64,000 bases of DNA from Promethearchaeota archaeon Loki_b32. Lineage in GTDB: Archaea > Asgardarchaeota > Lokiarchaeia > Sigyniarchaeales > SOKP01. The notes below the pieces were generated by a model, which was not told the origin of the DNA, made no database searches, and worked only from the letters and a program-made list of their open reading frames with translations. Positions 32,869 to 37,166 of this stretch are shown here, in pieces; position 1 is the stretch's first letter, and each line of letters begins with the position of its first letter. Location: the NCBI GenBank assembly GCA_005223125.1, contig NJBH01000009.1:1-64000 (forward strand). The letters are read 5' to 3'. The translations under genes were made by a program, and so were the position numbers.

Positions 32869-33726
32869 ATGAGTTTTAAAAAAAAACTTGCTGAAAAGTT
32901 AAATAATACGTTAGATGAGGGGGAGCTCTCACTTCTTCCACGAGGTTTTCAGACTTTGGGGAAAATTATTATTATAAAATTAAATTCAAAATTATTTGAT
33001 AAAAAAGATATCATTGCCCAAGCATACCTAGATTTACTTCCTAAAATGAGAGCAGTTTACTTAAATATGGGTAGAATTGTAGGAACATGTAGAGAACCAG
33101 AAAATATTGAATACATCATGGGAGAAGATGATCCTATTGTTGAACATAAAGAACACGATGTAATTTACAGGTTCAATATAACTAAAATCATGTTTAGTAA
33201 GGGAAATATTAATGAAAGAAAATATCTCGCAACCTTAGTTAAAAATGGAGAAATAATTGTTGATATGTTTGCGGGAATAGGATATTTTTCACTTCCTATT
33301 GCAAAACACTCTGGTGTAGAAAGAATTTATAGCATTGAACTAAATCCTGAATCATACAAATTTTTCCTGGAAAATATTAAACTTAATCATTTAGAAAAAA
33401 TAATTTTTCCAATTAAGGGGGATTGCAAGATCGAGGTTGTAAAACTTAGTGAATCGGGAATTAGAGCTGATAGAGTCATCATGGGTGTTTTTCCTGCTCC
33501 TAAGGATTACATAAGAGAAGCATTATCTTTAGTAAAAGATAAAGGAACGATGTTTCACTATGAAGGGGTGGTAGAGAAAGATAATTTCTTTCCTCTATTT
33601 GAAGAATTTAAAGAAATAACACTTAAGGAAGGATACAAATGTGAATTAAATTCACATAGATTTGTTAAAAGTTATGGTCCTCACTTAAATCATGTTGTTT
33701 TAGATAATTTTGTCTTTAAAATTTAG
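32869..33726 (+). CDS. taw2: Taw2-like tRNA(Phe) wybutosine aminocarboxypropyltransferase
   Basis: 285 residues. The class I SAM fold has VDMFAGIGYFSLPIAKHSGV (motif I), IYSIELNPESYKFFLENIKL and MGVFPAPKDYIREALSLVKD. The upstream part MRAVYLNMGRIVGTCREPEN is the Trm5/TYW2 pattern. The GIGYF in motif I, and a length between Taw2 and Trm5, favour Taw2, which adds the aminocarboxypropyl group of SAM to base 37. A Trm5-type m1G37 methyltransferase is the alternative. It begins a run of nucleic-acid enzymes reaching to 37166. Confidence 0.72.
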   Translation: MSFKKKLAEKLNNTLDEGELSLLPRGFQTLGKIIIIKLNSKLFDKKDIIAQAYLDLLPKMRAVYLNMGRIVGTCREPENIEYIMGEDDPIVEHKEHDVIYRFNITKIMFSKGNINERKYLATLVKNGEIIVDMFAGIGYFSLPIAKHSGVERIYSIELNPESYKFFLENIKLNHLEKIIFPIKGDCKIEVVKLSESGIRADRVIMGVFPAPKDYIREALSLVKDKGTMFHYEGVVEKDNFFPLFEEFKEITLKEGYKCELNSHRFVKSYGPHLNHVVLDNFVFKI

Positions 33727-33788
33727 ATAATTTTATTTATAGAATAGAAGAAATATATCTTATATAGAAGTGAAGAGTGAACCATAAA

Positions 33789-35039
33789 ATGATTGGTTTA
33801 GATTATAGTCATAATAATTTTTTAGTATTAGAATCGTCTAGTTTTGGCGAATTTACGCAGTTCCTGTTTACATCTGGATATAAATTAGGTAAAATCGAGA
33901 CTGGATTTAATTCTTTAGACAATTTAGATAAGTACAATGTAATAATACTCTCAACTCCTCGAAATACGAGTTTAAAATTGAATGAGATTAAAATACTTGA
34001 GAAATATGTAAAAAATGGAGGAAGTCTTTTAATTGTCAGTTCTAGTGGAGGAGATTATACAAATAGTACGAATTTAAATGATTTAACACAAAAATTTGGA
34101 TTTGAATTTGTATCAGATGAGATATATGATTCAGTGAATTATGTCAATCTTCAAAAAAGACCTATTATCACTAAAATTAAACCTCATGTAATAACAGACC
34201 AAATTAAAAAAATTGTTTTTTCAAGTACTTGTTCTACAAAAATCTTAGATTTTATCGAGGATGAGAAGAATGTAAAAATACAGGGTGTAATGCAATCTGG
34301 ATTAAATTGTTGGCGTAAACGTTATGATGGAGAATATTGGGTTGAAGAAGACAGTCCCAAGATTCAATTGATGGTTGTTGTGGAATATTTTAAGGGTAAA
34401 GTTGTTGGTTTTGGAAATCTTAGTATATTTTCATCTCTTGCCCGTGAGTATGGTTTTTCTGCTTTTGATAATGATATTTTAATAGCAAATATTCTGAGTT
34501 TTTTAATAGGAAGTTTAGAATCTGAAGGAAAACCGGTGACAATTGAATTAAATTTAGATTTATATTATTGGGTTGAAGGTATTGTTAAAAAAGAAAAATG
34601 GGATAATGTTTCAGATCTTATTAATGTAAGTCTTAAATACTTTAAAGATAATTACGATACTATTATAAAGGAAATTAAAAAATTACGATTAGAGAGATTA
34701 GAGAAAAGGAAAGCATACAAAAAAACGATAGAAGAAAAAGAAAGAAAAGAAATTCCTGAGGATGATGTGATAGATAAAGTTCCGGTTTTAGTAAGAAAGA
34801 AAGAAGATCTTGAAGATATTATGGATGCTTTAGGAGATTTAACTGGTGAAAAATATGAAATTTCCATTGAATTGGATGATGAAGAAGGAAATTTACCTGG
34901 AAAGAAATCACTATTAGATTATACAGATGATGATATAGATGAATTTGAGAAGGGATTTCCTAAAAAAGCAATTTGGCACGGAAAACCAACCATCGCATTT
35001 AAAGAGTGGTTGGATAAAAAATATAAAAATCAAAATTAG
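33789..35039 (+). CDS. GIFT-domain protein resembling the IFT52 N-terminus
   Basis: About 416 residues. Residues 1-150 follow the GATase-1-like GIFT domain: YNVIILSTPRNTSLKLNEIK, ILEKYVKNGGSLLIVSSSGG, then TNLNDLTQKFGFEFVSDEIY. In IFT52 the same order occurs (PREKFT...L..YL..GG.. then TNIN.L..E.GI). The similarity is from memory, not computed. The following region (150-230) adds strands, then a charged coiled coil (about 285-325), an acidic stretch and the tail AIWHGKPTIAFKEWLDKKYK. ATG 33789 is chosen over GTG 33777 because GAGTGA lies between them. Confidence 0.65.
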   Translation: MIGLDYSHNNFLVLESSSFGEFTQFLFTSGYKLGKIETGFNSLDNLDKYNVIILSTPRNTSLKLNEIKILEKYVKNGGSLLIVSSSGGDYTNSTNLNDLTQKFGFEFVSDEIYDSVNYVNLQKRPIITKIKPHVITDQIKKIVFSSTCSTKILDFIEDEKNVKIQGVMQSGLNCWRKRYDGEYWVEEDSPKIQLMVVVEYFKGKVVGFGNLSIFSSLAREYGFSAFDNDILIANILSFLIGSLESEGKPVTIELNLDLYYWVEGIVKKEKWDNVSDLINVSLKYFKDNYDTIIKEIKKLRLERLEKRKAYKKTIEEKERKEIPEDDVIDKVPVLVRKKEDLEDIMDALGDLTGEKYEISIELDDEEGNLPGKKSLLDYTDDDIDEFEKGFPKKAIWHGKPTIAFKEWLDKKYKNQN

Positions 35040-35081: not shown

Positions 35082-36488
35082 ATGCATCATTTCTTATTCG
35101 TGTTAGGCTCCAATTGGCGTTTAAGTTTAGCAGAATTAGACAACTATCTTAAATATTCTCAAAATAAAGGAAAAATTGTAGATTATTCTGCTAATATTGC
35201 TATAGTAGAGTTTGAAAAACTTCACCAAGATAGACAGTATATAAATAAACTCATGGAGATCCAATTCATTTTAGGAGGTTGTCAAAAGATTGCTGAAATT
35301 TATGATTTTATTGATATTAAGACCATCCAAGATGCATTTCCAATACAAATCAATAAGTTTCGTTATGTAGAAAAATCTAGGAAGAAGATCCTTCATATTA
35401 TTGACAACTTAATTATTGGAAAACAAGGAATTTTCCCTAAAGTTTATGAGAGTATGTTTTTTGCTACCTCTATTTATCCAAATCTTTATGATGATAAATA
35501 TTATTCTGATATTTTGGTTAAACATTTCTTACCGTTTCTAAATAAAGAAATCATGGAAATTCTCAAACAAAAAGGTGCTGAAAAGGCATTATATTATCAA
35601 TATCCTGAAAAAAATATAAAATCAGGTAATTTGAATCCAATTTTTCCACATCATATAATTAAATATGAATTACTAAGTCAAAATAGAGCGGAAATAATTT
35701 TTGGGTTTACAGAAGAAGGAGTATATATAGCAAGAACATTTACTACAGATGACCCCAATTTTAAAAAGAGGATTGATGAAGAACGACCATATAAGGAATT
35801 TGAAAGTGCTATTTCTCCAAAATTAGCAGTGATAATGCTAAACTTCCTGAATTTATTTGAAAATAGAGAAAATAAAAAAATCCTTGATCCCTTTATTGGA
35901 AATGGGACAATTGGATTGTTTGCTATTCTACAAGATTTTCAAATACATGGTTCAGATATTAATAATCAGAAAGTTAAAAACACAATCCGTAATTTTTATT
36001 GGCTATTAGAATTATTGGAAGAAGAAATACCTCCATTTATTAACAAAAGAGTTTTGAATCATGATGCAAGAAATTTATCTGATGCTTTTGAACTAGATTT
36101 CTTTGATGGTATATCTACTGAACCAAATTTAGGTCCTTTTTACAAAAAAAAACCTTATTACACACAAGCTAAAGAATTATTAGATATGGAATTAGAACCC
36201 TTATATGATGAATTCTTTAGAGAAGCTTATCAAATTTTAAAACCTAATTGTAGGATATGTTTTGTTTCTCCGATCATTAGTACTGTTGATGGGAACGACA
36301 TTCAAGTAAATATCGAAAAACTAGCGCGTAAAAATAAATTTAGGCTTGTACCATTATTAGATCTTAATCGGATAAATAACAAAATTAATCAAAAACTTAA
36401 ATTTGGAAAACAGCATGTAAAAACTTTAATTGATGCTAAAAAAGGACAAATCATTAAAAGAAAATTGTATGTATTAGAAAAACAATGA
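35082..36488 (+). CDS. Trm11/TrmG10-like SAM methyltransferase
   Basis: 468 residues. The N-terminal 170 residues resemble the THUMP-containing part of Trm11 proteins (LFVLGSNWRLSLAELDNYL). The C-terminal half is the methyltransferase, with ILDPFIGNGTIGLFAILQDF (motif I), IHGSDINNQKVKNTIRNFYW and DARNLSDAF. Where N2-guanine methyltransferases have DPPY, this protein has TEPNLGPFY, so the substrate may differ from guanine-10 of tRNA. Its stop is six bases before the next ATG, forming an operon with endonuclease III. Confidence 0.75.
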   Translation: MHHFLFVLGSNWRLSLAELDNYLKYSQNKGKIVDYSANIAIVEFEKLHQDRQYINKLMEIQFILGGCQKIAEIYDFIDIKTIQDAFPIQINKFRYVEKSRKKILHIIDNLIIGKQGIFPKVYESMFFATSIYPNLYDDKYYSDILVKHFLPFLNKEIMEILKQKGAEKALYYQYPEKNIKSGNLNPIFPHHIIKYELLSQNRAEIIFGFTEEGVYIARTFTTDDPNFKKRIDEERPYKEFESAISPKLAVIMLNFLNLFENRENKKILDPFIGNGTIGLFAILQDFQIHGSDINNQKVKNTIRNFYWLLELLEEEIPPFINKRVLNHDARNLSDAFELDFFDGISTEPNLGPFYKKKPYYTQAKELLDMELEPLYDEFFREAYQILKPNCRICFVSPIISTVDGNDIQVNIEKLARKNKFRLVPLLDLNRINNKINQKLKFGKQHVKTLIDAKKGQIIKRKLYVLEKQ

Positions 36489-36494
36489 GATAAA

Positions 36495-37166
36495 ATGGAA
36501 TTTAGTGAAATTTTCGACAAAATCGAAGAACAATTAGAAGGAGAAGCTCATTTAGATGAATTAGCTAGAAAAAAACAAGATCCATTTAAAATTTTAATAT
36601 CAACGATATTGTCAGCACGAACGAGAGATGCAAATACTAGAATTGCTACTGAAAAATTATTTGCTAAATTCAGTACGCCAAAAACTATAGCTGAAGCTAA
36701 TCTTGATGAAATTGAACTACTTATAAGATCATCAGGATTCTATAAAGTTAAAGCTGCTCGAATTAAAGATGTCTCAAGAATATTAGTTGAAAGATATAAT
36801 AGCAATGTCCCTGATAATTATGAGGAATTAATAAGTTTACCTGGCGTAGGGAGTAAAACTGCTAATTGTGTGTTAGTATATGCTTATAAAGTGCCTGCAA
36901 TTCCAGTAGATGTACATGTACATAGAATTTCGAATAGATTGGGTTGGGTAAAAACCAAAACGCCTCCCAAAACAGAAGTAGCTCTAAAAAATACAATCCC
37001 CAAAGAACTTTGGTTAAAATTAAATAGATTAATTGTAAGATTTGGACAGCAAATATGCATATCAATCAAACCAAAGTGTGAAAGCTGCTCTATTAATAAT
37101 ATATGCCCTAAAGATTTTTCCATGGAATTGGCTATTAAAAAAAAAATAAAAAATAAATATAATTAA
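36495..37166 (+). CDS. nth: Endonuclease III-type DNA glycosylase/AP lyase
   Basis: 223 residues. It has DPFKILISTILSARTRDANT, the helix-hairpin-helix LISLPGVGSKTANCVLVYAY with the catalytic Lys in GSKTA (about 117), PVDVHVHRISNRLGW with the catalytic Asp, and a C-terminal 4Fe-4S loop CISIKPKCESCSINNICP. It removes oxidised pyrimidines and nicks the abasic site. All catalytic residues are present. It is coupled to the upstream methyltransferase gene. Confidence 0.94.
   Translation: MEFSEIFDKIEEQLEGEAHLDELARKKQDPFKILISTILSARTRDANTRIATEKLFAKFSTPKTIAEANLDEIELLIRSSGFYKVKAARIKDVSRILVERYNSNVPDNYEELISLPGVGSKTANCVLVYAYKVPAIPVDVHVHRISNRLGWVKTKTPPKTEVALKNTIPKELWLKLNRLIVRFGQQICISIKPKCESCSINNICPKDFSMELAIKKKIKNKYN

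Follow-up and report, generated by a model that had tools for sequence, protein, structure and literature searches.

The gene, its neighbours and its tail

Within the window, the whole 64,000-nucleotide stretch of DNA analysed here, we examined an open reading frame on the forward strand that codes for a protein of 420 residues (the window protein). Orthologues 59-87% identical over the full length occur in Candidatus Lokiarchaeota/Lokiarchaeia, so the gene is real and the genome Lokiarchaeal, hence Asgard, as had been proposed from the sequence alone. Since the orthologues begin 5-6 residues before the DYSHNN motif, the GTG codon at 33777 is more likely to be the start than the ATG at 33789. 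The features of the locus are as follows.

32869..33726, + strand: TYW2/Taw2/Trm5-type tRNA methyltransferase family protein, upstream, gap of ~50 bp (PF02475, 163 bits; PF25133)
33777..35039, + strand: coding sequence of the GIFT-domain protein, 420 aa (alternative start, ATG 33789)
33777..34511, + strand: GIFT domain, IFT52-like, residues 1-245 (PF23355, PDB phmmer, branch profile)
34311..34349, + strand: insertion WRKRYDGEYWVEE, residues 179-191 (alignment)
34527..34682, + strand: conserved beta-alpha-alpha segment, residues 251-302 (profile A4, predicted structure)
34653..34739, + strand: long charged helix, residues 293-321, possible coiled coil (predicted with low confidence; orthologue conservation)
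34920..35027, + strand: C-terminal mini-domain FEKGFPKKAIWHGKPTIAFKEWL, residues 382-417, common to unrelated Lokiarchaeal proteins
35082..36488, + strand: Trm-G10-like (TIGR01177/Trm11-like) methyltransferase, downstream, gap of ~42 bp
36495..37166, + strand: endonuclease III, next neighbour (TIGR01083, E=1.8e-61, just under cut-off)

In most relatives the window gene has a tRNA methyltransferase gene on either side, an arrangement conserved in a single archaeal order. Counting L014 and L057, apparently the same contig, as one, a TYW2/Taw2-type gene directly precedes the window-type gene in 17 distinct genomes and a Trm-G10-like gene directly follows it in 13, in both cases with the same orientation. 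The best NCBIfam model for the upstream methyltransferase is Taw2, with a score under its cut-off; the downstream one scores 47 bits with TIGR01177 and 21.7 bits with PF01170, both under cut-off.

The region behind the GIFT domain had been described as a coiled-coil tail. A charged helix that may form a coiled coil is present, but the tail also holds the beta-alpha-alpha segment (251-302) and the mini-domain (382-417). In the former, a strand (253-256) and two helices (260-272 and 278-291) are predicted with low confidence (pLDDT ~37-46), and profile A4, which represents this segment, had matches in 69 of the 224 Asgard genomes searched, every one of them from the window's own order. The pattern suggests a ribbon-helix-helix (RHH); because the segment gave no RHH match in Pfam or the PDB, and model confidence is low, we use RHH-like for the pattern and not for a proven fold. 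The mini-domain (about 32-36 residues; GKKAIWRGK-TKAF--W) matches no Pfam family and is predicted to form a helix-hairpin-helix, with a block mean pLDDT of 68-81. The source genome has 11 copies, and 3-12 copies per genome were found in 12 of the 69 Asgard genomes searched, each a member of the same order. Besides the window protein, its carriers (L102-L108, L112-L118) are RNA polymerase A' (at the C-terminus), HisKA-response regulators, a Ras-like GTPase and a repeat protein; it has the look of a docking tag common to them. The tail is missing from several shorter members of the window branch.

Kinship of the GIFT domain

The motifs by which the sequence-only reading had likened the protein to the N-terminus of IFT52 are where it placed them, with PRN-T-L at residues 61-67, EIKILEKYVKNGG at residues 70-82 and TNLNDLTQKFGFEF at residues 98-111 of the reading frame 33777-35039. 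The end of the domain, put at 34260, has to be moved, as the second half was lost by it; the domain reaches to about residue 245 (34511). With the Pfam model IFT52_GIFT (PF23355; curated cut-off, 27.2 bits) the whole window protein scored 36.2 bits (E=4.5e-9), and the domain alone 37.8 bits. The second-best model was ABC_transp_aux (GldG; PF09822), at 29.6 bits and under its cut-off of 34.7, and the scores with DUF4350 and OST48_N (PF03345; cut-off, 36 bits) were 16.5 and 15.6 bits. The protein is a member of PF23355 by a score over the curated cut-off and over that of every other GIFT model, the margin over the GldG model being only about 6 bits.

When the window protein was used as a single phmmer query against all PDB chains, IFT52 from Chlamydomonas was found at E=1e-10 (5fmr) and 2.5e-10 (8bd7) and that from mouse at E=1.1e-4 (5fms). 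No non-IFT52 sequence fell below 0.01, the next match being a designed barrel at 0.019. In the reverse search, two IFT52 sequences gave the window domain 47.4 and 28.1 bits, respectively, and the best of 50 shuffled sequences reached 2.6 bits against IFT52; the similarity is far above chance. Profile A3, made of the window branch and related Loki paralogues, scored 67.8 bits with IFT52 (5fmr) and 18.0 bits with the next unrelated PDB chain. IFT52 is the closest named family, as suspected earlier, and a clear best match to GldG or DUF4350, with IFT52 no closer, did not occur. Judged by these scores, IFT52 is nearer to the window protein than GldG is, by a modest margin. L058, which belongs to the same branch, favours ABC_transp_aux (49.3 vs 37.8 bits with IFT52_GIFT), so the window-type branch sits between the IFT52 and GldG models; the ABC_transp_aux cut-off is passed by L058 and L052 and missed by the window protein.

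The window protein shows neither an apparent signal peptide nor a transmembrane segment such as the C-terminal anchor of GldG/DUF4350 proteins; the maximum of the 19-residue Kyte-Doolittle mean is 1.39 and falls within the GIFT domain. We conclude that residues 1-245 almost certainly form a GIFT domain, of an IFT52-like subfamily present across Asgard archaea, and that the protein is soluble and cytosolic. The 13-residue insertion WRKRYDGEYWVEE is absent, in the alignment, from IFT52, from the DETQ-type proteins described below and from a relative in Nonomuraea, and is present also in other Loki paralogues. For the conserved polar residues D9, H12, D93, N99 and N101, a role in ligand binding or in catalysis is just as possible. 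Structure prediction failed, as the usable alignment was shallow: with nine close orthologues, AlphaFold reached a mean pLDDT of 40 for the full length and 36 for the GIFT domain alone, and a Foldseek search with the latter gave no match below 0.001 (TM ~0.2-0.3), a result to which so poor a model lends no meaning. A scan of viral contigs and a plasmid search with the window domain found nothing, nor did a phage search; outgroup plasmid searches for other members yielded Nonomuraea, a haloarchaeal DUF4350 protein and a staphylococcal GldG-family protein.

The Asgard family and the descent of IFT52

IFT52_GIFT matched in 220 of 228 Asgard genomes at E<=1e-3 (209 over the cut-off) and in none of the 14 control genomes; in the source genome six loci match, five of them over the cut-off. 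The window type, marked by DYSHNN, is a branch confined to Lokiarchaeales and carries the insertion as a derived trait. A second type, here called DETQ, has FDETQ-ERG near the N-terminus, a GIFT domain and a coiled or helical tail, and occurs in many Asgard families (L015/L071, L017, L019, L020, L025, L034, L068 and others), with a copy in the source genome too (L005/L068). DETQ-type scores with IFT52_GIFT range from 44 to 102 bits and are mostly stronger than those of the window type; the best member, L015/L071, reaches 102 bits over both halves of the domain, vs 41 bits with ABC_transp_aux. The DETQ profile, A2, gave 87.6 bits (E=7e-24) with the IFT52 structures and 16.0 bits with the next PDB sequence, OST48. 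Used as queries, IFT52 sequences rank L071 first, at 63 and 62 bits, vs 31 and 23 bits for the Nonomuraea relative. By these scores the DETQ-type proteins are better relatives of IFT52 than the window protein is. The Nonomuraea control favours DUF4350 (42 vs 24.5 bits), the staphylococcal GldG-family control favours ABC_transp_aux (36.8 vs 22.1 bits), and the Haladaptatus control is a plain DUF4350 protein. The Nonomuraea protein (L049) is a DUF6421 protein of an actinobacterium, whose N-terminal domain is GIFT-like and falls under DUF4350 in Pfam.

DETQ genes adjoin an ATP-dependent DNA ligase gene at six loci of several families (L071, L074, L078, L079, L080 and L085) and lie near an NDP-sugar nucleotidyltransferase gene at four. 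At the ligase loci the DETQ gene mostly precedes its neighbour by 10-130 bp in the same orientation, and beyond it there is usually a gene for a protein of ~187 aa, the copy at L071 having no Pfam match. In family f28 (L076, L077, L081-L084) the DETQ gene belongs to a fixed cluster with genes for an SMC/Rad50-like ATPase and DNA polymerase B, which also holds genes for HIT, PCC and ~515-aa proteins, the last without a Pfam match. As paralogues are placed beside genes for DNA ligase, DNA polymerase B, an SMC-like ATPase or an NDP-sugar transferase, the GIFT domain is not fixedly tied to tRNA modification. No cytoskeletal or trafficking neighbour was recognised among the identified genes.

Other arrangements of the domain were seen as well. 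In the Asgard subtilases L004 and L018 it follows the protease domain, and L018 also matches, weakly, the GATase-like domain of the eukaryotic site-1 protease (MBTPS1). The Asgard protein L016 combines it with a methyltransferase of the PCMT type and another region at the C-terminus. In the source genome a short IFT52_GIFT-like paralogue (L006/L067) adjoins a gene that, by eye, is a putative proteasome beta subunit gene.

In eukaryotic IFT52 a GIFT domain at the N-terminus is followed by a disordered middle part, which threads through IFT88/IFT70, and by a C-terminal domain that pairs with IFT46 (PMC10191852). Of these three parts, the GIFT domain alone was matched in Asgard archaea. The C-terminal domain, Itf52_C, was over its cut-off in 0 of 109 Asgard genomes and was not found by Pfam in the window protein, and full-length DETQ-type proteins gave no match to the central or C-terminal parts of IFT52. 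IFT46 was over its cut-off in 0 of 58 Asgard genomes and had no match in the source genome; its sub-cut-off matches were judged to be noise, as two bacterial controls show the like. With the rest of IFT52 and IFT46 not found, the window protein is very probably not an IFT subunit, and what was found is not an IFT system; nothing here suggests ciliary transport in these archaea.

The trees contained two IFT52 sequences, both read from printed PDB alignments and interrupted by a central gap, and a small number of long outgroups. In them the window type formed a clade with 98-99% support in two trees, and the DETQ type had 99/97 in one tree and 83/56 in another. IFT52 shifted from a place next to DETQ (59/50) in one tree to one next to the window type (35/0) in another, and of the alternatives tested none was significantly supported or rejected (AU p-values, 0.18-0.49). 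The rows from bacteria and haloarchaea clustered together with 71/70 support. On this evidence, descent of IFT52 from Asgard archaea is plausible. We regard it as an even call whether its GIFT domain was vertically inherited from a cytosolic protein of the DETQ type, with the RHH-tailed branch of the window as a Lokiarchaeal sideline unrelated to cilia.

IFT proteins are regarded as inventions of the eukaryotes, and IFT52 is the subunit by which the IFT-B1 complex is organised. IFT52-like relatives occur in nearly all the Asgard archaea examined, from which it follows that the IFT52-type GIFT domain is probably older than cilia. The Asgard family shows this domain existing without cilia and, being near-universal there and closer to IFT52 than the sampled GldG/DUF4350 proteins, offers a candidate archaeal origin for one core IFT subunit; if the DETQ-type ancestry is true, a cornerstone of IFT-B1 has an archaeal root. 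It is this broader family that is of interest here. That the window protein, first thought to bear on the origin of IFT, is the one that does so is not supported. It belongs to a Lokiarchaeal side branch: it has the derived insertion and the ~6-bit margin, and its relative L058 prefers the GldG model. Among open-access papers we found none that joins Asgard archaea and IFT52, though one may exist elsewhere. A 2023 survey of ESPs in Nature (PMC10307638) reports Asgard OST48/WBP1, and its main text is without IFT or GIFT.

Possible function and known systems

We lean, by a little, towards regarding the window protein as an IFT52-like GIFT protein that works as an adaptor outside IFT. As to mechanism, we propose only tentatively that it is a cytosolic, probably dimeric and non-catalytic adaptor linked to tRNA methylation. 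The GIFT head would bind either a partner or a small ligand, two copies would be joined through the beta-alpha-alpha segment, and the C-terminal mini-domain would dock the dimer to a hub also used by other Loki proteins with the same tail. Its task may be tied to the methylation of tRNA guanosines, which is encoded on both flanks of the gene.

The main rival is a one-component regulator in which the GIFT domain would act as the sensor of a small molecule and the RHH-like segment as the DNA-binding part, with control over the flanking operon. The beta-alpha-alpha pattern behind the GIFT domain fits this, as do the proposed sugar binding of GIFT domains (PMC7226087) and three HisKA/response-regulator proteins of the source genome, in which the mini-domain stands directly before a clearer RHH-like segment. 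However, the strand that would contact DNA, VTIELNL, has no basic residues, no RHH family was matched and the ligand pocket would be hypothetical, and we consider a regulator rather unlikely. It is a good deal less probable that the protein serves an ABC transporter or a secretion complex as an auxiliary subunit of the GldG/DUF4350 type. ABC_transp_aux is its second-best model and the one that L058 prefers, but the window protein itself is under the cut-off, lacks the signal peptide or membrane anchor of archaeal DUF4350 proteins (PMC5898192), and has no ABC transporter gene beside it.

Similarly improbable is a functional IFT52 orthologue in a Lokiarchaeal proto-IFT or trafficking complex. 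It would agree with IFT52 as the closest named family and with the other eukaryote-like proteins of Asgard archaea (PMC10307638); against it stand the missing Itf52_C and IFT46, a branch that is found only in Lokiarchaeales and has an insertion absent from IFT52, the tRNA enzymes encoded next door, and the closer match of the DETQ type. Least tenable, and largely refuted, is a generic GATase-like or Rossmannoid resemblance with no special kinship to IFT52: ThuA, DUF4159, DUF7408 and Glyco_hydro_42M do match weakly and the trees leave IFT52 unplaced, but those matches lie ~20 bits below IFT52_GIFT, PF23355 is missing from all 14 controls, and profiles A2 and A3 separate IFT52 widely from the next PDB sequences.

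Of the known systems, IFT52 (OSM-6/BLD1; PF23355; 5fmr/5fms/8bd7) is most readily set beside the adaptor that we favour. The two are alike in the first half of the domain (a strand, P, E---L-KYV-NGG-LLI, GG and TN-N-L---FG) and less so in the second, and both begin with a soluble domain and continue into a tail. Unlike IFT52, the window protein has D-x-S-H close to its N-terminus, the D being replaced by N/S in IFT52, and GGD for GGE; it carries the 13-residue insertion, has the RHH-like segment and a KAIWHGKPT tail in place of the IFT52 C-terminal domain, and is encoded between tRNA methyltransferase genes. The DETQ-type proteins share with it the phylum, the cytosolic make-up and the combination of a GIFT domain with a coiled or helical tail, and differ in having the FDETQ-ERG motif, no insertion and other neighbour genes. 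GldG/ABC_transp_aux (PF09822) and DUF4350 (PF14258; arCOG01314) proteins have the GIFT/flavodoxin-like fold in common with the window protein; they score higher with their own models, whereas the window protein is under both cut-offs. Archaeal DUF4350 proteins are, moreover, exported and membrane anchored (PMC5898192), and the window protein has no membrane segment. The N-terminal domain of OST48/WBP1 (PF03345), homologues of which are reported in Heimdallarchaeia (PMC10307638), is also a GIFT domain, but the window protein scores 15.6 bits against a cut-off of 36, and in eukaryotes OST48/WBP1 is, unlike the window protein, luminal and membrane anchored.
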